A stretch of 64,000 nucleotides of DNA. Origin: Marinilabiliaceae bacterium ANBcel2. Its GTDB lineage: Bacteria > Bacteroidota > Bacteroidia > Bacteroidales > Marinilabiliaceae. Shown piece by piece: positions 48,103 through 62,834 of the stretch; position 1 is the stretch's first letter, and the number at the start of each line of letters is the position of its first letter. A model generated the notes under the pieces. It was not told where the DNA came from. It saw only the letters and a program-made list of their open reading frames with translations, and did no database searches. Made by a program: the position numbers and the translations under genes. The stretch lies in assembly GCA_029688995.1 (NCBI GenBank), contig JARULA010000007.1:62001-126000 (forward strand). Reading direction: 5' to 3'.

Positions 48103-48885
48103 TCATCTATCGAGCCATTTTTTAAATTTTCCGGCTCTTAATCGGCTAACAGTAATCTTCTCATCACTATTGGAGCCATCAATTTTAACAATTAGTTTAC
48201 CTCCAAAATAGTTTTCAATACGTGCTACAGCATTAATGTTGACAATTACCTGACGATTGGCCCTGAAAAATATATCAGGATCAAGCTCCTTTTCAAGTCT
48301 CTCCAAAGAAAAATCAATAATTTCTACTTTGCCCGAAAAGGTGACGGCATGAGTAACTTTTTCAATAACATTGAAAAAAGCAATATCATTAACACTCATC
48401 TGTATATAACCATCTCCTTTAGGAACCAAAAACCTTTGTCGATATCCCTTTTGAAGCATTGCTTCACCTTTTATCTCCTCAAAACTCTTTTGAATAAGTG
48501 ATATACTCTTCTCTACACTAAAGGTATCTTTAATATTTTCTATCTTCTCAAAAATTTTTAACAGCTCCTCCTCTTTTACCGGCTTTAAAAGATAGGCAAC
48601 ACTATTGTAGTCAAAAGCATCTAATACATACTCATCATAAGCTGTTGTAAATACTATAACCTTATTGGTCATATCCACACTATCAAAGATAGAAAAGCAG
48701 ATCCCGTCTGAGAGCTGAATATCCATAAACATTAAGCAAGGACCGGGGTTGCTTTTTATCCAATGAATGGTATCCTCAACACCTGTGAGCTTAGCAACAA
48801 TTTCACATTCAGGATTAACTGCAGCTATTTTTTCTTCAAGAGCCTCAGCCAGTATAGGCTCATCTTCAACTATTACTGCTTTCAT
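48103..48885 (-). CDS. LytTR-family response regulator
   Basis: A 260-residue regulator: receiver domain (1-120) with E7/D8 pocket, phospho-acceptor D55 (LMFMDIQLSD), T80 region and K102 (LLKPVK), then a LytTR DNA-binding domain (about 150-258: FFRANRQVIVNINAVARIE). It follows its partner histidine kinase by 33 bp. Confidence 0.94.
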   Translation of the reverse strand: MKAVIVEDEPILAEALEEKIAAVNPECEIVAKLTGVEDTIHWIKSNPGPCLMFMDIQLSDGICFSIFDSVDMTNKVIVFTTAYDEYVLDAFDYNSVAYLLKPVKEEELLKIFEKIENIKDTFSVEKSISLIQKSFEEIKGEAMLQKGYRQRFLVPKGDGYIQMSVNDIAFFNVIEKVTHAVTFSGKVEIIDFSLERLEKELDPDIFFRANRQVIVNINAVARIENYFGGKLIVKIDGSNSDEKITVSRLRAGKFKKWLDR

Positions 48886-48918
48886 TGGTTCAAAATTTTA
48901 TAATTGTTTGATAAAAAA

Positions 48919-49992
48919 TCACAAATCAGTAATCCTCTCCTCAATAAAAGGAACCTTTACAATATAATAATCTTTATCGCAAAAAACTTCCAGCTCCCTG
49001 TTGGTATTTAACAGCTCAATGCGTCTGCTTAGATTTGATAATCCGGTATTAGTAGAGTAGGTAGAACTTTTGGGTCGCAAATTGTTTTTTACAATAAAGT
49101 GCTCCTTAGTAGCTGTAAGCTCTATTTTTAAAGGGTTATTGCTATCAATAATATTATGCTTAATTGCATTTTCTATAAGGAATTGCAGACTAAGAGTTGG
49201 AATTTTTTTATCTAAAAATTGCTCCTCTACCAGAGATTCAAAAACCAAACCATTAACTCTCTGCTTTTGAAGTGCAATATATGAATAGATAAAATTGAGC
49301 TCACTCTTTAATGTAACCACCTTTTTTTTACTACGCAAAAGAACATATCTATATACGTCGGTAAAATTCTCGGCAAAAGAGAGTGCTGCTTTTTGATCAT
49401 TTGGAATTATTGCCACCAAAGTACTTAAATTATTAAAAAGAAAATGGGGATTTAACTGATCCTGCAAAGCAAAATAATCAAGCTCTAACTTCTCTCTGTT
49501 AAGCCTTTCATTATCCCTTATAAATTTGCTCAAAGTTAAATGGTAGTTCCACCCTATTAATGCACATACATAAATTATTGTAAACAGGACTAATAACACC
49601 ATTAAAATACGCATATTCTCTTCACGCATACTCCGCTGCTCTATGAATAAATCCCCGAAGCGATCGGCCATAATAACAATAATAACAAGCCATACCAAAG
49701 CAAAAACAAAAAGCAGAAGCACTCGTTTTTTAACAGCAGTATGCCAGGGATAGCGATTAGCAAAACTGGCATCAAACATAAAAATTCCCTCACAAAGAAC
49801 AACTAAAGTAACAGCAGCAAAAACAATTCCTCTTAAAACCATATTTAATTCATATGCAGGATCATAGTCAACTTTCTCTTTTATAAAAAGAATATGAAGT
49901 AAAAGTATTATAAAGAGTGAAGCCAAAAGCTCAACTCCTATCCTGCGTAAATCAAAGCGTTTAATAGCTATAAAATCTTCTCTTTTGCGCAT
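48919..49992 (-). CDS. LytS/YehU-like sensor histidine kinase
   Basis: A 357-residue membrane kinase with four hydrophobic segments (about 21-38, 52-72, 91-110, 128-149) and no large extracytoplasmic domain, then the His_kinase domain with phospho-acceptor H183 (LNPHFLFNNLSTL) and the ATPase N-box LQFLIENAIKHNI. The signal is unknown. It is divergent from the CotH gene, separated by 190 bp. Confidence 0.93.
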   Translation of the reverse strand: MRKREDFIAIKRFDLRRIGVELLASLFIILLLHILFIKEKVDYDPAYELNMVLRGIVFAAVTLVVLCEGIFMFDASFANRYPWHTAVKKRVLLLFVFALVWLVIIVIMADRFGDLFIEQRSMREENMRILMVLLVLFTIIYVCALIGWNYHLTLSKFIRDNERLNREKLELDYFALQDQLNPHFLFNNLSTLVAIIPNDQKAALSFAENFTDVYRYVLLRSKKKVVTLKSELNFIYSYIALQKQRVNGLVFESLVEEQFLDKKIPTLSLQFLIENAIKHNIIDSNNPLKIELTATKEHFIVKNNLRPKSSTYSTNTGLSNLSRRIELLNTNRELEVFCDKDYYIVKVPFIEERITDL

Positions 49993-50182: not shown

Positions 50183-53100
50183 ATGAAATTACTCCGGGTT
50201 ATTATAACCATATCATCTATTCTTTTCTCCTCTTTCTATTATACAGCAACTGCTGAAAAGATCAACAACATTCGCATAACCGAAATTATGGCTTCAAACT
50301 CAAATACAATTGCCGATGAAGAGGGAGACTATGAAGATTGGATTGAAATTCACAATAGTGGCAATGAGCCAGTAAATTTAAACAACTGGGGATTGTCTGA
50401 CGATGAAACAACTCCTTTTAGATGGCAATTCCCCAATATAACAATAGACCCGGGAGAGTATATGATTGTATGGGCATCGGGAAAAAATCGCAAAAGGGAT
50501 GAACAAGATCAAAAGAGTGGTATAGTAAGAGAGGTGTGGTGGAATATTCCGGGGGCAAATGTTGATGATCTTTTAAATCATCCGGCCTTCCCGGGTAATC
50601 CAAGCCATAGAGAGATAGAGAACGAACATTTTGAAGCGCCTACAGATATTGCCGATGAATATGGTCAAAGAATGCATGGGTTAATTGAGGCTCCTAAAAC
50701 AGGAGAGTATAGATTTTGGATATCGGGAGATGACAACTCCCGTCTGTTTTTAAGCAGTAACGAAAGCAGCAACAATCAGCAGCTAATAGCTGAAGTACCG
50801 GGATGGACAAATCCAAGAGAGTGGAATAAGTTTTCTGAACAGAGATCTGATTATATTCACCTTAAAGAGGGAAAACAATACTACATTGCGGCATTAATGA
50901 AAGAGGCGTTTGGCGGAGATAATCTTGCAGTGCGATGGGAGCTGCCCGACGGTACAATCGAAGAGCCAATTTCAGCTTCACATATATATACCCCTTCACA
51001 ACAACTTCACACAAATTTTGCTATCTCATCGGATGGAGAGCCAATACTTTTAACCACTAACGAAGGGGTAACAATACAATACATCGCTCCTACAGTAATA
51101 CCGGGAGATATCTCTTACGGAACAGTTGAGGGAGAAGAGGGGTATTTCTATTTTAATGAACCCACTCCGGGAGAACCCAATAGTACTACACCCTACAATG
51201 AATTAATAAAAGAGGGACCACAATTTTCTCATACAGGAGGTTTTTACAAAGATAAATTTGATTTAACCTTAACTACCGATTATGCAGATGCAGAGATAAT
51301 ATATACAACCGATGGATCTAAACCGGATCCCAATAACAAAGAGGGTAAAACCTACTGGTACAAAAACAGCTATCCTCACGGAAACTTAATTTCGGGGGAA
51401 AAAGAGACCAAGTTATATGAGGATAAAATAACAATCACAGACAGGTCAGCATCTCCCTACTCAATAGCAGGTATTAATACACAATTTTCGAATAGTCCCC
51501 GACTACCACGCAGCAACATATTTAAAGGTACCGTAATAAGAGCCTCAATTGTAAAAGATGGAGCACTCTCTCCCAAACCGGTAACTCACACATACTTTAT
51601 AACACCAGAGGGTAAAGAGAGATTTTCATTACCTGTAATATCTATCACTACGGATGAAGATAACCTGTTTGACTACTATGAAGGAATATACGTAGCAGGC
51701 AAAGTGGCAGATGATTGGAGAGAAAATAATCCGGATGGAAATTTTACCGGCGGAACTCAGTCAAATTATAACCAAAGGGGTATGGACTGGGAAAAAAATG
51801 CCCATATCGAATATTTTGAAGAGAGCTCAAATGCGGTGTTAACACAAAATATCGGAGTAAGAGTACATGGAGGGTGGAGCCGCGCCAATTATATGAAGTC
51901 AATACGCCTGTACAGCAGATATGCTTACGATGATGATAACACATTTCACTATCCCTTTTTTGGTGAACTGCCTGCTGATGGTAACCCCGAAAAAAGAGTA
52001 ACATCTTTTCGACGACTAATGCTGCGTAACTCAGGAAACGATATGCACAGCACTATGTATCGGGATGCTTTAATGCAAGAGCTTGTAAAGGAGCTGCCTT
52101 TCACAACTCAGGCATATCAACCTGTAATACATTTTATTAACGGGGAGTATTGGGGAATTATAAATATGAGAGAGAGGTACGATCAGCACCATATCTCTTC
52201 TCATTATAATATGGATCCCGAGGATGTAGTTATTTTAGAGGCCAATGGAAATATAGACACCGGCATAGGAGGAGACAGAGAGCATTTTGATAATATATTA
52301 AATGTGGTAGAGACACAAAATATAAATTCAGAGCAAATATGGAAAAATGTCAAATCAAGTGTTGATTTAGAAAATATAGCTCACTACTTTGCAGCTCAAC
52401 TCTATTTTCATAACACTGACTGGCCACACAACAATCTGACCTTTTGGAGAAAAAGGGATTCAAACCCACCTAATAATGCGCCCTATGGACATGACGGAAA
52501 ATGGAGATGGATGATGTATGATGTTGATTTTGGCATGGCTTTAAGCGGTAATTACTATAGCAATGCCATAAACCATGTAATGGGTTCATCAGCTATATCG
52601 GCAAGACTCTTTAGAGGCCTTCTTGAAAATGATGATTTTCGTTATCTGTTTCTTAATACAGTAGCGGATCAACTAAACAGCTGCTTTAAAAAAGATTTTG
52701 TTCATAACACTATCGATAGATTTAATGATACTCTTGAACCTGAAAGAGACGAGCATTACAACAGATGGAGCAGTGGAGTAGACAGAGGACAATCAATGAA
52801 AACTTTTGCATCGCAAAGACCGCAATATGTAAGAAGTCAAACCCAAAACCAGTTTAATTTATCGGGCACCTATAATTTAATAGTAGAGAAAGAAGGAGGA
52901 GGGGGAAAAATAAAGGTCAATTCATTAACAATAGATAAAAATTTGCCTGGTCTTGAAGATTATGAAAATCCATATCCCTGGTCGGGTCAATATTTTCATA
53001 ACATTCCAATAAAACTAAAAGCTGTTGACACAAAAAGTCATACATTTTCACACTGGGAGGGAGACCATATAGGAGAAAGCAGCGAAAGGGAAATAACCAT

Positions 53101-54001
53101 TCAATCAACCCAGAATCAATCAGTAAAAGCAATATTTATTGCTTCCGAAAGAGAGGTTATTCACTACTGGCATTTTAATAATTTATCTGATGAGAGTTTT
53201 AATAGAACAGAAGCAGATATCTCAAAAACCGATAAGAAAGGTTCAATTGCGATTGAGGGAGAAGGTGAGGGATATATGGATATTGTGGATGACGGAACTA
53301 TAATAAACTCTTATAACAACACTATTGAGGGATTAGCATTAAGAGTTAGAAACCCTTTAAACAATAATCATCTTAAACTTAAAGTTCCAACTACAAATTA
53401 CGACAAACCAATATTGAGATATGCTGTTAAACGAACCACGAATGGTCCACGTATTAACAACATTTATTATCGGACTGATAATGAAGGTGAATGGAAAAAA
53501 ATTAAAACGCAAATAAAAGTAACTTCAGAATACCGGATAATAGAAGCTGATTTTTTAAATATTCCTGAAACCTATAACAATGATAATTTCTCTGTAAAAA
53601 TTGACTTTACAGGCGATCACACAGCTGGCAGTGACGGCAATAACAGATTCGACAACATAACATTAACCGGTCATAAAGCAGTTGAAGATCAAGATGAAGA
53701 GGAAGAAAATGAAGAGAAAGAAAATGGAGAGGAAGAAAATGGGGAAGATAAAAATGGGGATAAGGAGTATATACATAACATCTATCCCAATCCGGCCGGT
53801 GAGGAGATAAATATAAGGTCATCAAATAATATAAAAAGGGTAACTGTTTACAATATTGGGGGGCAAAAAATTTTACAATATCACCTGCCCGACAACAACA
53901 AAAAAATATCTCAAAACGTTTCATCTCTCACAGCGGGGATATATATTTTTGAGATAGTAACCTCTAAAGAGACCCTGAAAGAGAGAGTAATTATATATTA
54001 A
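50183..54001 (+). CDS. Large T9SS cargo with lamin-tail, PA14 and CotH kinase domains
   Basis: A 1272-residue exported multidomain protein. Signal peptide 1-24; lamin-tail domain about 28-100 (ITEIMASNS, DWIEIHN); PA14-like domain 150-272; chitobiase C-terminal-like domain 345-473 (IIYTTDGSKPDPN); CotH kinase-fold domain about 480-860 with WPHNN, TFWR (753-756) and the metal-binding YDVDFG (779-784); InlB-type beta-repeat about 895-985; a further beta domain 990-1163; a Glu/Asn/Gly linker 1166-1195; and a T9SS type A sorting domain 1199-1272 (IYPNPAGEEINI). CotH domains are atypical protein kinases; the target here is unknown. It is convergent with a DUF4956-VTC-HlyD gene group whose families often occur with CotH genes. 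Confidence 0.88.
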   Translation: MKLLRVIITISSILFSSFYYTATAEKINNIRITEIMASNSNTIADEEGDYEDWIEIHNSGNEPVNLNNWGLSDDETTPFRWQFPNITIDPGEYMIVWASGKNRKRDEQDQKSGIVREVWWNIPGANVDDLLNHPAFPGNPSHREIENEHFEAPTDIADEYGQRMHGLIEAPKTGEYRFWISGDDNSRLFLSSNESSNNQQLIAEVPGWTNPREWNKFSEQRSDYIHLKEGKQYYIAALMKEAFGGDNLAVRWELPDGTIEEPISASHIYTPSQQLHTNFAISSDGEPILLTTNEGVTIQYIAPTVIPGDISYGTVEGEEGYFYFNEPTPGEPNSTTPYNELIKEGPQFSHTGGFYKDKFDLTLTTDYADAEIIYTTDGSKPDPNNKEGKTYWYKNSYPHGNLISGEKETKLYEDKITITDRSASPYSIAGINTQFSNSPRLPRSNIFKGTVIRASIVKDGALSPKPVTHTYFITPEGKERFSLPVISITTDEDNLFDYYEGIYVAGKVADDWRENNPDGNFTGGTQSNYNQRGMDWEKNAHIEYFEESSNAVLTQNIGVRVHGGWSRANYMKSIRLYSRYAYDDDNTFHYPFFGELPADGNPEKRVTSFRRLMLRNSGNDMHSTMYRDALMQELVKELPFTTQAYQPVIHFINGEYWGIINMRERYDQHHISSHYNMDPEDVVILEANGNIDTGIGGDREHFDNILNVVETQNINSEQIWKNVKSSVDLENIAHYFAAQLYFHNTDWPHNNLTFWRKRDSNPPNNAPYGHDGKWRWMMYDVDFGMALSGNYYSNAINHVMGSSAISARLFRGLLENDDFRYLFLNTVADQLNSCFKKDFVHNTIDRFNDTLEPERDEHYNRWSSGVDRGQSMKTFASQRPQYVRSQTQNQFNLSGTYNLIVEKEGGGGKIKVNSLTIDKNLPGLEDYENPYPWSGQYFHNIPIKLKAVDTKSHTFSHWEGDHIGESSEREITIQSTQNQSVKAIFIASEREVIHYWHFNNLSDESFNRTEADISKTDKKGSIAIEGEGEGYMDIVDDGTIINSYNNTIEGLALRVRNPLNNNHLKLKVPTTNYDKPILRYAVKRTTNGPRINNIYYRTDNEGEWKKIKTQIKVTSEYRIIEADFLNIPETYNNDNFSVKIDFTGDHTAGSDGNNRFDNITLTGHKAVEDQDEEEENEEKENGEEENGEDKNGDKEYIHNIYPNPAGEEINIRSSNNIKRVTVYNIGGQKILQYHLPDNNKKISQNVSSLTAGIYIFEIVTSKETLKERVIIY

Positions 54002-54045
54002 GATAAAATAGTTAAGTAAGAGAGAGCCCTGCTCATTTTTAACAG

Positions 54046-54720
54046 CTAATCCTCATCAAAAAAGAGATTAACCTGATGTACTCCCGGCACTTTACGAAGT
54101 AAAGAGACAAGAAGGCTACCATTTTTTTCATCTTTAAGTTTAATATAGTACGAATACTCCATAAGTTGATCCATATCATCCCCAATAGTTTTAACATTAA
54201 CCAGCTTATGACCTTTACAATACTTTTTAAACAGAGCCCCAAAAGGGTTATCGGGAGTCTCTTCACTATCGGCAGCAATATGCATCAAAAACTCCTTTTT
54301 ATTTGAGAGCGAAAAACTAAACTTATTAATAAGAAGATATACTCCTCCCACCATAAAAGTTCCCAAAAATGCAATAGAGTAGAGTTTTACTCCGGCAGCC
54401 AAACCAATAGCAAGTGCAAAAAAGATAAACATTATATCAGAGGCATCTTTAACAGCAGTTCTAAAACGGATAATCGACATTGCCCCCACCATACCAAAAG
54501 CCCTGGCCAAATTATTTCCTATTACCATTATAACTATAGAGGTTATCATAGTAAGCATCACAATAGAGATGGTAAAGGCAGCAGAGTAATTAAGTCCCTG
54601 ATAAGTATGCTTATAAAGCAGCGCTATTAAAAGTCCGCACACCATAGCGACCAACACATTGGCAAAAACATCCGCTGCAGTAATGTTAAAAGTGAAAATT
54701 GTTTGAATATCCTCCATCAA
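54046..54720 (-). CDS. DUF4956 integral membrane protein
   Basis: A 224-residue inner-membrane protein: four hydrophobic segments between about residues 15 and 135, with the family signature GMVGAMSIIRFRTAVKD in a cytoplasmic loop, then a soluble C-terminal domain (about 140-224) ending in an acidic tail. DUF4956 proteins have no established activity and tend to sit beside VTC-domain genes, suggesting a membrane partner or channel. It is 10 bp downstream of the VTC gene. Confidence 0.9.
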   Translation of the reverse strand: MMEDIQTIFTFNITAADVFANVLVAMVCGLLIALLYKHTYQGLNYSAAFTISIVMLTMITSIVIMVIGNNLARAFGMVGAMSIIRFRTAVKDASDIMFIFFALAIGLAAGVKLYSIAFLGTFMVGGVYLLINKFSFSLSNKKEFLMHIAADSEETPDNPFGALFKKYCKGHKLVNVKTIGDDMDQLMEYSYYIKLKDEKNGSLLVSLLRKVPGVHQVNLFFDED

Positions 54721-54730
54721 TAAATATCTA

Positions 54731-55483
54731 TTAATAAGTTAATTTTCGATTATATTTGGCAACATCATAACCTATTGTATATTTTGAAATTGCATCGTTA
54801 CGCAGTTTAAACTCCTGAACAACTGATCGTGCCCACAAAGGCATCTCATCGGTAAAATATTTTATCTCTAAAACAAAATGGCTGTCAAATAATCTTTTTA
54901 AATCAGACTCCTGATAAAGCGCATCAAAACCGGGGAAACCCTTACTACGAATATTTTTATCAAAAGTTAACCTCACGCCACTATCCATTTTCCCAAAAAA
55001 AGCCTCTCTCTCGTAAGCAATAATATTAGTTGGCATATACTGCTTCTTTTTTAAATGATAAAAAAACCGTTTTGCATCATCAACCGGCTTTCTACTGCCA
55101 TTTGTAATAATATACTCTTCAAGATTACCAAAAACCATAGCCTTTTTAAGATCGCGATAATAGAGATTTGCCCTGTGCTTTTTTATTCTGTTACCAATTT
55201 TTCTTTTAATCTCAAGCACCACTTTATTATTGGGATCATAACTATTATAGCCTCTAATCCGCAATTTACGCCTCAACTTTATACCACTATCCTTTTGACC
55301 ATAACACTCCATATTTCGCGAATCAAGGTATATACTCCTAACAGTATATTGCCTCACACCAAATTTATTTGGAATAGTGTTTTCATCAGGAACTACAAAA
55401 GGAGCAATACGTTTGCGTAAAGGCTCCATCTGCTCATTGGGAACCAGGTACTTTCTCTCATATCTCAACTTCTCCCCTGCCAT
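54731..55483 (-). CDS. VTC-domain polyphosphate polymerase-like protein
   Basis: A 250-residue single-domain protein of the triphosphate-tunnel-like VTC family; the yeast Vtc4 domain makes polyphosphate from ATP. The tunnel-lining basic/acidic strands are visible: RYERKY (7-12), VRSIYLDS, RRKLRIRGY, VVLEIKRK, IAYEREAF and FVLEIKYF. No membrane segment, so a cytoplasmic catalytic domain relying on the neighbouring DUF4956 protein for membrane contact is plausible. It starts 3 bp after the HlyD-like gene. Confidence 0.9.
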   Translation of the reverse strand: MAGEKLRYERKYLVPNEQMEPLRKRIAPFVVPDENTIPNKFGVRQYTVRSIYLDSRNMECYGQKDSGIKLRRKLRIRGYNSYDPNNKVVLEIKRKIGNRIKKHRANLYYRDLKKAMVFGNLEEYIITNGSRKPVDDAKRFFYHLKKKQYMPTNIIAYEREAFFGKMDSGVRLTFDKNIRSKGFPGFDALYQESDLKRLFDSHFVLEIKYFTDEMPLWARSVVQEFKLRNDAISKYTIGYDVAKYNRKLTY

Positions 55484-55486
55484 AAA

Positions 55487-56575
55487 CTAACTTTGATAAA
55501 TCTTACGTGTTAACCTTTTAAGATATTCAACAATAGTTATCTCTCCACAACTAATTGTTGCCCTAACTTTTAAATTAGAAAGAACTATATCATTATGGTT
55601 TTCTAAAAGTGCAGTAACAAAAACAGTTTGGCGCTGATCCAGAGTTTGCACACTTTTATCAATATTTATAACTCTGCCCGATACAGGCGCCCCCTTAAAT
55701 AGTGAGTGAGCAACATCAACTGTCATCCCCTCATTTAAAAATTGTATCTCGCCAACCTCAACAGGCATCATAAGTACCATAGAGTCGATAGAGGCAACCC
55801 CGGCAATTAACCCTCCCTGCTCAAAAGCTAAATCTTCAATAAAAGTTCCGGTTAAAGGAGAGGTGACAACAAATGCATCTAGCCGCTCTTTAACACTGTT
55901 TATTTGTTTGTCAACAGCATCAATGGCAGTATCAATAAGATCAACCTCCTCTTTTTTTGATCCCGAAAGAGCCTCCCTGTAATTAGCCTCAGCAATTAAA
56001 ACATCTCTCTTTTTGGTCTGAAAACTATTTTGAGCCATCTCAAAATCCCGATCAGATATAACATCCTCACTATAAAGCTGCTCTGAACGCTCAAACTGCC
56101 TTTCTTCGGTCTCAAGCTGCAACCGGGCAAGCTCAAGAGCCTCTTTTGCAGCTTCTATACGGTGAGGAGTATCTCCGGTTATCAAAACATTTCGCTGACG
56201 TTTTAACTCTGCCTTTTCTCTTTTAAGCTCCATAAGCTTATACTGTTCAAGATGGGAATCAAAATGACCAATTGTATCACCCGCCCTTACCTTCTCATTT
56301 TTATCAATTTTACCATTAAATGTAAAAGAGAGGTGATCTCCTCGTTGAAACTCTGTAGAAGAGTAGCTTTTGATAGAGTTGCTAACATTACTCCTTAATG
56401 AGCTTACAACTGCTCCCCCATCATTTCGCGTTAAAGACCACTCAGCCGCAGGAAGCACAACCCCGTTACCGCTAACAGTATATGGAACCGATATATATAA
56501 CAAAACAAAAGCCGCCATAATAGTAACAGCGACTCCTATAAGCCACAACTTTAACTTTTCATTCATAAAAAACAC
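55487..56575 (-). CDS. HlyD-family membrane-fusion-like adaptor
   Basis: A 362-residue protein with one N-terminal membrane segment (about 10-30), a split lipoyl/barrel-sandwich (VSGNGVVLPAAE early, VTSPLTGTFIEDLAFEQGGLI late), a coiled-coil hairpin (about 115-235) and a beta-barrel region. Such adaptors link inner-membrane exporters to the outer membrane, but no ABC or RND transporter gene is adjacent. Instead it heads the VTC-DUF4956 group with 3-bp spacing, an unusual partnership. Confidence 0.82.
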   Translation of the reverse strand: MFFMNEKLKLWLIGVAVTIMAAFVLLYISVPYTVSGNGVVLPAAEWSLTRNDGGAVVSSLRSNVSNSIKSYSSTEFQRGDHLSFTFNGKIDKNEKVRAGDTIGHFDSHLEQYKLMELKREKAELKRQRNVLITGDTPHRIEAAKEALELARLQLETEERQFERSEQLYSEDVISDRDFEMAQNSFQTKKRDVLIAEANYREALSGSKKEEVDLIDTAIDAVDKQINSVKERLDAFVVTSPLTGTFIEDLAFEQGGLIAGVASIDSMVLMMPVEVGEIQFLNEGMTVDVAHSLFKGAPVSGRVINIDKSVQTLDQRQTVFVTALLENHNDIVLSNLKVRATISCGEITIVEYLKRLTRKIYQS

Positions 56576-56628
56576 TACATCTTAAAAAGACTTAAAAGTA
56601 TAAAAAGTTATCAGAGGAACCAATACAA

Positions 56629-56664
56629 AAGGCAGAAAACACCTTTTACGGTATCCCCTGCCTT
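56629..56664 (-). terminator. Probable terminator after nrdJ
   Basis: Read on the minus strand, AAGGCAG and CTGCCTT (7 bp) enclose an inner ACC/GGT hairpin and are followed by TTTGT. It lies in the 115-bp gap between nrdJ and the HlyD-like gene and suggests these are separate transcripts. Confidence 0.5.
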
Positions 56665-56690
56665 CAGTTTTAAACGGCACAATAAAATTT

Positions 56691-59702: not shown

Positions 59703-61346
59703 ATGAACCCAAAACTTCACTTCTTCTTTAAAGCAGTAAAACTAACATCAATTCTTTTTTTACTGCAAACACCGGCAGTAACGCAGGTACAGACAGGAGG
59801 AGAGGCTTCAATTATAACTTTAACCGGTGGTGGTGACGCTGTCCCCTTGTGGATGTACAGCAGAGAGGAAGGCAGGTGGTCGCACAATCACACATCTCAG
59901 TTTATTACAGAGGGTTCGGGTTATTTTAACTACAACATTAATGATTCATGTAGTTTAAAAGCAGAAGCAACTATACTGCACAACAACCGTACCGACGATT
60001 TAATGCTTCATAAAGGGTATATCTCAGCTTCATGGAATTTTCTTTCATTAACAGCAGGCAAACACACCTTTGATCCAATATTTGAAGAGAGTTACAGCGG
60101 ACACGGCTCCTATCTATACGGAGACAATAACCGTCCGCTACCCCGCATTACTGCAGGCATACCCAGCTACCTTACACTGCCATCGTTTCTCTCACTTTTT
60201 GCAATAAAAGGAGAGATAAGTCATGCATATCTTGATGATCGCCGCAGCAATGCAACCCACTCACATAAAAGGACTCTTCTTCACGAAAAGTATGCTTATG
60301 TAAGGTTAAACAGTGGCAACTGGAAACCCTACTTTGGATTAAACCATTCGGCGCTCATGGGAGGTTACAGATATAACCACAGTAGCGGTGAGCATACCGA
60401 AAGCATCCCAATTGATTACTGGCCATCATTTGTGGCAAGCGGATCGGAGGAGATTGGAGGAGGAGAAGAGACTAATGCTGCAGGAGGACACATGGGACTA
60501 TACGATTTTGGAATTTATCACTCAAACAGCGCCGGAGAGTTTAAAATATATTATCAGGCTCCTTTTGCCGATGGGTCGGGGATGAACCTGAAAAGAAACA
60601 GCGATCAAATAGCAGGAGTAAACTGGCAACCGGCCAACATAAGTTTTTTAAATAACTTAACAGTTGAATGGATAAATACCCACTATCAATCGGGCAAAGG
60701 TATGCCGGATATAATAATGAACTTTCCCGATGAAGAAGGAAAAAGATTAATAATTAACAGTGAATTAGAAGATAGAGAGCTAAGAGAAAGGATAATGATA
60801 GCTATGGGACAACCCGAAGGTGACTATACCAAAAGTGAGGTACAAACCTTTCTTCGTAATGAACTAAATGAAGGTCACCGGTATGGAGGTCGTGACGGAT
60901 ACATGAACAATGGAGTTTACCCTGCGGGGTGGACTTACCACGGGAGAATTATGGGGTCACCTTTAAACCTGACTCAAAACCAACTAACTCATATAGATGG
61001 AGAGTTTGGAAGTTACAATCGAACATTTATTATAAATGACCGTTTTAAAGGTATCCATATAGGTGCTGAAGGAAATATCTCAAATTCAATCAAATGGAAA
61101 ACAAAACTTACTTATAGTAAAAACTACGGATCATATTATCAGGAATATCCGGGACGTTATACATGGAACAGGACAGTGGATTACTATTTTGACGGCGGAA
61201 AAAACCAGTTATACTCTCTTATTAATATAGAGTGGCATCCGCCAATTAAAGGAAAAAATATTATAGTATCAGCCACTTTTGCCTGTGATAGAGGAGATAT
61301 TTATGATTCTAATGCAATCAAAAGTGGAATAAAATGGCTGTTTTAA
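59703..61346 (+). CDS. Capsule assembly Wzi-family outer-membrane protein
   Basis: A 547-residue predicted outer-membrane beta barrel of the Wzi family, which in enteric bacteria anchors capsular polysaccharide on the surface. It has a signal peptide (about 1-28), repeated amphipathic strands, the family-type segments GKHTFDPIFEES and YAYVRLNSGNWKPYFGLNH, and a C-terminal strand ending KSGIKWLF with a terminal Phe. The sugar transferase gene follows 90 bp downstream, fitting an exopolysaccharide role. Confidence 0.8.
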   Translation: MNPKLHFFFKAVKLTSILFLLQTPAVTQVQTGGEASIITLTGGGDAVPLWMYSREEGRWSHNHTSQFITEGSGYFNYNINDSCSLKAEATILHNNRTDDLMLHKGYISASWNFLSLTAGKHTFDPIFEESYSGHGSYLYGDNNRPLPRITAGIPSYLTLPSFLSLFAIKGEISHAYLDDRRSNATHSHKRTLLHEKYAYVRLNSGNWKPYFGLNHSALMGGYRYNHSSGEHTESIPIDYWPSFVASGSEEIGGGEETNAAGGHMGLYDFGIYHSNSAGEFKIYYQAPFADGSGMNLKRNSDQIAGVNWQPANISFLNNLTVEWINTHYQSGKGMPDIIMNFPDEEGKRLIINSELEDRELRERIMIAMGQPEGDYTKSEVQTFLRNELNEGHRYGGRDGYMNNGVYPAGWTYHGRIMGSPLNLTQNQLTHIDGEFGSYNRTFIINDRFKGIHIGAEGNISNSIKWKTKLTYSKNYGSYYQEYPGRYTWNRTVDYYFDGGKNQLYSLINIEWHPPIKGKNIIVSATFACDRGDIYDSNAIKSGIKWLF

Positions 61347-61436
61347 TTATTAACAAAAAATAGTTTAACAACACTGCTTTATTCTAAATATCGATTAACA
61401 GATTATTTAAAAAGAGAGCAGACAAAGATCAAACTT

Positions 61437-62834
61437 ATGCTAAAAGAGAGAGCTAGATTAATAAACTCGATTATTACAATCGCAGATGTTTTTATTGCAA
61501 TTTTTGTTTTTAATATTGTTATTAATATTCTGGTTGAGCAGCCAAATATTATAAATCATAAAGACAATATAATTATACAGCTGCTTATAATTATTTATTG
61601 GGCTTTGCTAAGTGACGGACTCGGAACTAATGTGTTATACCGGTCACGTCCGAGCTCTCTGGTACTTTTCAATTGCACAGGATTAGTTATAATGGGCACA
61701 ACTCTGTTAATCCTCTCAGCATGGCTTCTCAATATTTCACACTTAAACTTCAGGTTTTTTGCTCTTTTTTCGCTTACAACTCTATTTTTAACTGCCACAT
61801 TTAAATTATCCACCTACCGCATACTTAAAAAATTTCGCAAAAAAGGGAGAAATTCACTCAATTTAATAGTGATAGCAGATAAATCAGCAAATCATTTTTT
61901 ACGTCAAATAAAAAAGCATCCCGAGTGGGGATACAAAATCACAGCAATCCTGGGGAAAGAAGAGGAGCTAAGTGATTTCAAAAACTCATTCACTATTATC
62001 AACCCTGAAACAGATATTGAACAGTTGCTAAGAGACAAGCCAATAGATGAGGTAGTAGTATGCAGTGAAAATATGGTAAGTACAAGAAAACTTGAAGAGG
62101 TGATGCAGATATGCAACAATGTAGGAGTTGTATTTAGGATGTACTCACCCTTCTTTAACATGCTGGCAAACAAAACTCACCTTCACTTTTTTGGAACAAC
62201 ACCCCTTGTTACAATATCAAATACCCCTATGGACTACCTCGCCTTAAAAGGGAAACATCTTATTGACCGTCTCTTTTCGGCAGCTGTTATAATATTAGGA
62301 TCTCCCATCTTTTTAACTATTGCAGCTGCAATTAAGATAGACTCAAAAGGACCCGTTTTCTTTAAACAAGAGAGGTGCGGATTAAGAGGCAGAAGATTTT
62401 TTGTTTATAAGTTTCGCACAATGGTGGTTAATGCCGAAGAACTAAAAGAGAAACTTATGGAGCAAAATGAGATGGACGGACCGGTTTTTAAGATTAGCCG
62501 GGATCCACGCATAACAAAAATGGGACACTTTTTACGCAAAACCAGTCTGGACGAACTCCCTCAATTCTTCAACGTACTTAAAGGAGAGATGTCAGTTGTT
62601 GGTCCGCGCCCTCCAATCCCTGCCGAAGTAAAAGAGTATGAGCTTTGGCAGCTGCGCCGACTTTCGATGAAACCGGGCATAACGTGTATATGGCAGGTGT
62701 CGGGGCGAAACAATATACCTTTTGAAGAGTGGATGAAAATGGATTTGGAGTATATTGATAACTGGTCTCTTAAATTAGACTTTATTCTATTTTTAAAAAC
62801 TATAAGAACAATGTTTCGTGGAGACGGTAAATAG
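61437..62834 (+). CDS. Polyprenyl-phosphate sugar-1-phosphate transferase (WcaJ-like)
   Basis: A 465-residue membrane enzyme that starts glycan synthesis by moving a sugar-1-phosphate onto undecaprenyl phosphate. About four N-terminal membrane segments (residues 8-130) precede a CoA-binding-like domain, a re-entrant membrane helix (RLFSAAVIILGSPIFL, about 280-305), and the catalytic domain with FFKQERCGLRGR, FVYKFRTM, LRKTSLDELPQFFNVL and SVVGPRPPIP. The sugar is not predictable from sequence alone. Confidence 0.93.
   Translation: MLKERARLINSIITIADVFIAIFVFNIVINILVEQPNIINHKDNIIIQLLIIIYWALLSDGLGTNVLYRSRPSSLVLFNCTGLVIMGTTLLILSAWLLNISHLNFRFFALFSLTTLFLTATFKLSTYRILKKFRKKGRNSLNLIVIADKSANHFLRQIKKHPEWGYKITAILGKEEELSDFKNSFTIINPETDIEQLLRDKPIDEVVVCSENMVSTRKLEEVMQICNNVGVVFRMYSPFFNMLANKTHLHFFGTTPLVTISNTPMDYLALKGKHLIDRLFSAAVIILGSPIFLTIAAAIKIDSKGPVFFKQERCGLRGRRFFVYKFRTMVVNAEELKEKLMEQNEMDGPVFKISRDPRITKMGHFLRKTSLDELPQFFNVLKGEMSVVGPRPPIPAEVKEYELWQLRRLSMKPGITCIWQVSGRNNIPFEEWMKMDLEYIDNWSLKLDFILFLKTIRTMFRGDGK

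Follow-up and report, generated by a model that had tools for sequence, protein, structure and literature searches.

A putative polyphosphate exporter formed by a VTC polymerase, a DUF4956 protein and a HlyD-like adaptor beside a CotH gene in a Marinilabiliaceae bacterium

This locus raises the question of what a HlyD-like periplasmic adaptor does beside a VTC polyphosphate polymerase and a DUF4956 membrane protein, and why these three genes face the gene of a CotH protein with a T9SS sorting domain. In bacteria, polyphosphate is mostly regarded as a PPK product stored inside the cell; to our knowledge there is no established route for its export. From sequence comparison we propose, with a probability of roughly 55%, that HlyD, VTC and DUF4956 would form an envelope-spanning polyphosphate exporter, the chain emerging at the surface where the T9SS-exported CotH may act on or with it. 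The locus lies in the window, that is, the whole stretch of 64,000 nucleotides from Marinilabiliaceae bacterium ANBcel2 analysed here, and its features are the following.

48103-49992, minus strand: genes of a LytTR response regulator and a histidine kinase, divergent from cotH (Pfam)
50183-54001, plus strand: CotH kinase-fold protein of 1272 aa with LTD, PA14, CHB_HEX_C_1, CotH and T9SS Por_Secre_tail domains (Pfam)
54046-54720, minus strand: DUF4956 membrane protein of 224 aa (Pfam, 1.7e-15)
54731-55483, minus strand: free-standing VTC polyphosphate-polymerase domain of 250 aa (Pfam, 1.7e-34)
55487-56575, minus strand: HlyD/MacA-like periplasmic adaptor of 362 aa (NCBIfam HlyD model and fold search)
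56628-56665, minus strand: terminator-like hairpin between the ribonucleotide reductase gene and the triad (terminator scan, weak)

Gene layout and conservation of the triad

The four reading frames and the families assigned to them in the original prediction agree in position with the ORF list and in domain content with Pfam. The adaptor, VTC and DUF4956 genes, called the triad here, form a leftward unit whose intergenic gaps of 3 and 10 bp are exactly those given there. The adaptor gene starts with GTG, and an alternative in-frame ATG is possible at 56566. The cotH and DUF4956 genes are convergent with 44 bp between their ends, and a ribonucleotide reductase gene (Pfam) is found upstream of the triad. 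Given the hairpin before it, the triad may be transcribed separately from the reductase gene; the terminator scan found 9 sites versus 5.5 expected in shuffles, a weak excess, and the promoter scan was of little informative value (30 found versus 23.9 expected). The LytTR regulator and histidine kinase pair is tied to the system by position only. In the 2.98 Mb window genome one VTC match and one CotH match are found, and they are mutual neighbours.

Relatives were searched with a profile of ten triad VTCs (alignment A1), which gave 326 in named genomes, and the best 80 were kept. Neighbours were counted on unfiltered reading frames. A HlyD-like frame is located directly upstream of VTC in 80/80 of these best matches and DUF4956 directly downstream in 78/80, the other two loci (L150 and L167) ending at a contig edge. 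Since the best 80 were chosen by similarity to the triad VTCs, the fixed order is shown inside that clade only. Going by their titles they are mostly Bacteroidota records, and one record each of Krumholzibacteriota, Latescibacterota and Melioribacteraceae ranks last. Cultured carriers of the triad include Alkalitalea saponilacus, Natronoflexus pectinivorans and Alkaliflexus imshenetskii. The linkage thus extends well outside this strain, so that the restriction to one strain named beforehand as speaking against the original prediction was not found, and the adaptor, which had been called unusual in the company of CotH, VTC and DUF4956, turns out to accompany the VTCs of this clade throughout the best 80 loci. 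An earlier idea of the HlyD gene as a local accident was dropped, since the neighbour counts put HlyD across the triad loci. A conserved lipoprotein-like gene adjoins 19 of the 80 triads; the four of these neighbours that were scanned have no Pfam match above cut-off.

VTC is present in 142 of 296 sampled Bacteroidia genomes. The matches listed for this class comprise 151 loci, 10 triads and 141 without HlyD, which makes the HlyD-less locus the commoner kind in Bacteroidia. Three of the 151 (L072-L074) were taken from a separate relatives search, and seven of the ten class-side triads, whose contigs are equal in length to those of loci in the 80, are probably duplicate records of these and not independent of them. 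DUF4956 lies within 3 kb of VTC in 134/141 HlyD-less loci. Neighbour-family clustering took in 135 of the 141, and one gene family is present in 85 of these, in 79 of them at position +2 and on the same strand. DUF4956 adjoins VTC in 115 HlyD-less loci, of which 101 have a same-strand gene next after DUF4956. This gene encodes an outer-membrane DUF2490 protein in 51 of the 60 scanned (the first 60 of the 101 by locus number), and outer-membrane barrel or porin models are matched by six and five of those 60, either in addition to DUF2490 or in its place. Bacteroides thetaiotaomicron has a DUF4956-DUF2490 pair of this kind in BT3498-BT3499, and VTC is not shown there in the accessible part of the source (PMC10434189). 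Judged by their gene families, the two locus kinds each add a different, predicted envelope-crossing part to a shared VTC-DUF4956 core. The adaptor in one and DUF2490 in the other, placed on the same core, are in our view the best indication of a product that is exported from the cell.

Polymerase, membrane protein and adaptor

The window VTC matches PF09359 with 1.7e-34 and 119.8 bits (cut-off 23). A single-sequence search of the PDB with this protein gave no match, whereas yeast Vtc4 (3g3q) was recovered at 2.4e-11 when the A1 profile was used. Residues Arg75, Arg77 and Glu206, invariant in the ten triad VTC sequences of A1, align with Arg264, Arg266 and Glu426 of yeast Vtc4, the numbering being checked by spacing. 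Changed together, these three inactivate yeast Vtc4, according to the accessible text of PMC9911596. The catalytic residues are thus kept on alignment, and the loss of tunnel residues that was named beforehand as speaking against the original prediction was not found. The hallmark of eukaryotic VTC4, an SPX and a membrane domain on the same chain, is absent from the window protein, whose 250 aa hold the VTC domain only. A PPK1-like gene is also present in the window genome (PF02503, 3.7e-47), and VTC therefore need not serve internal polyphosphate.

VTC and DUF4956 might instead act on a different polymer of the envelope, for example an exopolysaccharide, and release no free polyphosphate. The pel clusters of streptococci, clostridia and bifidobacteria have genes for CotH, a polyphosphate polymerase and DUF4956 next to them (PMC7112168, in the part accessible to us), L033 and L034 have a family 2 glycosyltransferase gene at a distance of some kilobases from the triad, and the window itself contains a Wzi-like gene and a bacterial sugar transferase gene 3-6 kb from the triad. 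Against this, the residues required in Vtc4 are kept, and no polysaccharide gene was recognised among the 22 most frequent triad neighbour clusters, most of which were judged by eye. The counter-evidence to a polysaccharide is little, and we still consider such a product rather improbable compared with a free polyphosphate chain.

The window DUF4956 protein matches PF16316 with 57.6 bits (cut-off 30.6), and the family match is found in 73/73 sequences of alignment A4 at E up to 0.01. Its structure model, of moderate quality (pLDDT 75.8, pTM 0.56), has five predicted long helices and a ferredoxin/ACT-like C-terminal domain. Two arginines, Arg85 and Arg87, are located close to where the third of these helices ends. 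They are conserved in 86/86 triad sequences, and in 129 and 130, respectively, of 130 HlyD-less sequences. Provided that the C-terminal domain is cytoplasmic, both would lie at the cytoplasmic mouth of the modelled protein. In yeast VTC, cytosolic synthesis is coupled to passage via a lysine/arginine-lined channel, as described in the accessible text of PMC9911596. The fold search with the DUF4956 model returned matches to the C-terminal domain only, among them MgtC (2lqj and 7qa5, Z 9.5) and many other ferredoxin-like folds, with NikR, ribosomal protein S6 and ACT domains scoring equal or higher. With the MgtC Pfam model the window protein reaches 17.5 bits versus a cut-off of 31.4, and 39/73 sequences match at E up to 0.01. 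No relative of known structure was detected with the DUF4956 profile at the sequence level, and the accessible texts of open-licence papers naming the family contain no test of its function.

The adaptor scores below the Pfam cut-offs. The NCBIfam HlyD model matches it with E 2.3e-15, yet far under the curated cut-off of that model. In its structure model (pLDDT 91.4) a membrane-anchor-like helix (residues 6-27), a long alpha-hairpin and beta parts are seen, and each of the two predicted hairpin arms has a joint, the first arm being made up of 108-133 and 137-169 and the second of 175-203 and 208-234. The best fold matches are MacA (9qgy, 1.4e-16), EmrA and AcrA. For MacA, a TM-score of 0.48 and an rmsd of 10.8 over 327 alignment columns indicate that the domain placement of the adaptor differs or is uncertain. 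The adaptor profile aligns to MacA after the hairpin, and lipoyl and barrel domains may be present there. This MacA-like fold fits the export idea of the original prediction. The hairpin turn at 169-175 overlaps R163-x3-L167-x6-S174, a spacing which we take to be that of the TolC-docking RLS tip motif. Arg163 is invariant in 77 adaptor sequences and Leu167 is kept in at least 90%. An R-x3-L motif occurs within residues 141-185 in 66/76 adaptor proteins, and in these 66 matches the serine place holds Ser in 35, Ala in 19, Pro in 6, Thr in 3 and Asn in 3.

No pump gene of the ABC, RND or MFS type is found beside the adaptor in the window, where it sits between ribonucleotide reductase and VTC; across the best 80 loci the place next to the adaptor is taken by VTC, followed in 78 by DUF4956. 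A TolC-type gene follows DUF4956 on the same strand within 1.5 kb in 10 of the 80 best-matching loci, some of which are cut by contig ends, and a wider count of OEP genes within six genes gives 12/80. None is found beside the triad in the window, and 16 OEP domain matches are found elsewhere in the window genome.

These counts bear on a simpler arrangement, in which VTC and DUF4956 would deliver polyphosphate to the periplasm only, the adaptor would be a tether, lid or regulator, and nothing would cross the outer membrane. Right after 70 of the 80 triads, some on cut contigs, the profile found no TolC-type gene, and yeast VTC likewise crosses only one membrane in the accessible account (PMC9911596). 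Such delivery would not call for a MacA-like adaptor whose long hairpin carries a putative TolC-type tip. The outer-membrane DUF2490 gene in a fixed place of the HlyD-less loci and the export tails on 13 of 18 triad-adjacent CotH proteins also speak against it. Delivery that ends in the periplasm therefore appears unlikely to us, and passage of the chain through the whole envelope is the reading that we follow.

The CotH protein and its association with VTC

The CotH domain covers residues 559-883 of the 1272 (PF08757, 3.9e-39), and the YDVDFG motif reported as intact is found at residues 779-784. The protein ends in a T9SS C-terminal sorting domain (Por_Secre_tail 1.2e-12, TIGR04183 1.5e-10). 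The catalytic-type residues Lys572, Asp746 and Asp780 are kept. In 18 triad-linked CotH proteins, of which one is that of the window and some are truncated at contig edges, the CotH match and both aspartates are found in 18/18, Lys572 in 16 and the T9SS tail in 13. The CotH protein with a T9SS tail that had been thought unusual is thus there, but such a tail is common among triad-linked CotH proteins. A single-sequence PDB search with the CotH domain gave no match, and the CotH profile (alignment A6) matches Bacillus cereus CotH (5jd9) at 3.1e-14, with the aligned aspartates 23 residues apart. In Bacillus subtilis CotH, changes of Asp228 and Asp251 inactivate the protein, and the source of its ATP is called an unanswered question in the accessible text (PMC7821199). 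By equal spacing, the B. cereus aspartate pair would correspond to Asp228 and Asp251.

Of the 80 best-matching triads, 18 have a CotH gene no more than 5 kb from VTC (11/39 with full flanks), as do one of the 10 class-side triads, namely that of the window, and 64 of the 141 HlyD-less loci (51/108 with full flanks). The convergent CotH/triad arrangement of the window is also found in Marinilabilia sp. UBA5340 (L095). At the level of genomes, CotH is present in 137/142 Bacteroidia with VTC versus 32/154 without (Fisher p 2e-45, descent not accounted for). Within the family of the window (37 genomes, window genome included) the numbers are 18/21 versus 5/16 (p 0.0016), and in the phylum of G390, a Krumholzibacteriota record (69 genomes), 15/17 versus 13/52 (p 5e-6). 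For the remaining families of this order, 23 genomes in all, the difference of 8/10 versus 6/13 is not significant (p 0.20). Genomes with VTC are larger on median, and VTC still contributes in a model that includes genome size (p 9e-5 and 3e-4). Among 42 of the triad genomes, CotH is found in 39 and is absent from G359, G382 and G390; only one of the 42 has it beside the triad (L171). For CotH and VTC, the co-occurrence stated in the original prediction holds at the level of genomes (137/142 versus 32/154), whereas adjacency of CotH to the triad is optional (18/80). The tie between the two families shows in shared genomes more than in gene position.

It might be argued that the CotH neighbour is a coincidence and that the triad works without it. 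The optional adjacency, the three of 42 triad genomes without a CotH match and the lack of a significant association in the other families of the order are in line with this, but the single CotH and the single VTC of the window genome adjoin each other, the co-presence recurs in Bacteroidia, in the family of the window and in the phylum of G390, and the effect of VTC persists when genome size is included. A chance neighbourhood is therefore quite unlikely in our opinion, and a functional tie of CotH to the putative exporter is retained below.

A proposed export route and known systems

In the proposed exporter, VTC would polymerise phosphate from ATP in the cytoplasm, and DUF4956 would move the growing chain past its conserved arginines and over the inner membrane. 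From there, the HlyD-like adaptor would lead the chain through the periplasm to a TolC-type channel, whose gene is linked in some genomes and would be encoded elsewhere in the window genome. Once the chain emerges at the surface, T9SS-exported CotH proteins may act on or with it. This would be a synthesis-driven tripartite export, in which the polymerase and DUF4956 occupy the usual place of the pump. What we infer here is which polymer is made, how it travels, that a TolC-type partner takes part and what CotH does; an assay of any member protein was not found in the open-licence literature.

An extracellular kinase has little ATP. Exported polyphosphate could be a donor or a substrate for CotH outside the cell, and that CotH uses it at all is a bold guess. 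A full scheme of ATP-free extracellular phosphorylation, with tripartite export and a secreted CotH that takes polyphosphate as donor or as a chain for attachment to surface proteins, would explain why VTC rarely occurs without CotH (5/142 Bacteroidia genomes); we give it only a small chance. Among the best-matching open-licence papers on phosphate donors and polyphosphate no mention of CotH was found. If the proposal is right, the conserved polymerase-adaptor operon would provide a direct genetic handle on surface polyphosphate, and the system would offer a way to ask how extracellular kinase-fold proteins obtain phosphate.

The linkage of CotH, polymerase and DUF4956 is already in print. The HlyD triad, its DUF2490 counterpart and the genome-wide coupling of VTC and CotH were not found in the accessible texts of the open-licence literature. 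A comparison with the yeast VTC complex (Vtc1/Vtc3/Vtc4) shows a homologous polymerase domain with the catalytic Arg, Arg and Glu kept, and, as its partner, a membrane protein whose basic residues are conserved, with synthesis plausibly coupled to translocation. Unlike in yeast, the window VTC chain has neither an SPX nor a membrane domain, the membrane part is DUF4956, with Pfam matches to DUF4956 and weakly to MgtC only, and there is a periplasmic adaptor in addition. An adaptor is not needed where the cell has a single membrane. Beside Gram-positive pel clusters the same three families, cotH, polyphosphate polymerase and DUF4956, are found side by side, in cells with one membrane and with no adaptor named in the accessible part of the paper (PMC7112168). 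In NELoc-2 of Clostridium perfringens, VTC and CotH genes are close, with genes of 222-226 aa between them; the accessible text labels these as tubulin/FtsZ and names no adaptor (PMC2879425). Our guess is that these 222-226 aa genes encode DUF4956 proteins.

The HlyD-less loci of Bacteroidia share the VTC-DUF4956 core with the triad, and CotH within 5 kb in 64/141, but they lack the adaptor and often have the outer-membrane DUF2490 gene instead. With MacAB-TolC, EmrAB-TolC and related exporters the triad has in common the adaptor fold, the anchor, the long hairpin and a putative TolC-type tip, and some of the triad loci include a TolC-type gene as well. In those exporters the adaptor works with a pump, whereas the window adaptor has no neighbouring pump gene and the polymerase and DUF4956 are found there instead.

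Genes beside the triad and cotH

In 19 of the 80 named loci, which are the best 80 of 326 VTC relatives, the triad (HlyD-VTC-DUF4956, the predicted polyphosphate exporter) is flanked by a conserved gene whose lipoprotein-like product is roughly 310-330 aa long. A Pfam scan of four lipoprotein-like members gave no match above the cut-off (0/4). This gene may be a further envelope part.

Triad-flanking lipoprotein-like genes in Bacteroidia loci
L033:10953-11939
L034:10952-11935
L035:7586-8557
L036:6210-7139

The CotH kinase-fold gene cotH may be regulated by the pair divergent from it:

Window 48103-49992, LytTR regulator and histidine kinase

Polysaccharide-type genes are also found near the window triad, but on the far side of a ribonucleotide reductase gene:

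Window 59703-62834, Wzi-like capsule assembly gene, then bacterial sugar transferase gene

A second VTC in related genomes

In two relatives of the window's family, a second, long-type VTC lies a few kb from a CotH gene, in addition to the HlyD triad:

G300:C11:6434-10075
G318:C75:13615-18526

Habitat of triad carriers

The cultured carriers Alkalitalea, Natronoflexus and Alkaliflexus are alkaliphiles. Record titles of 40 of the 80 kept loci (L092-L171), all 40 of them MAGs, bear the labels CSSed, T3Sed or CSBr, a count that may be biased by the query's own clade. In two papers, these labels denote Kulunda soda lakes.
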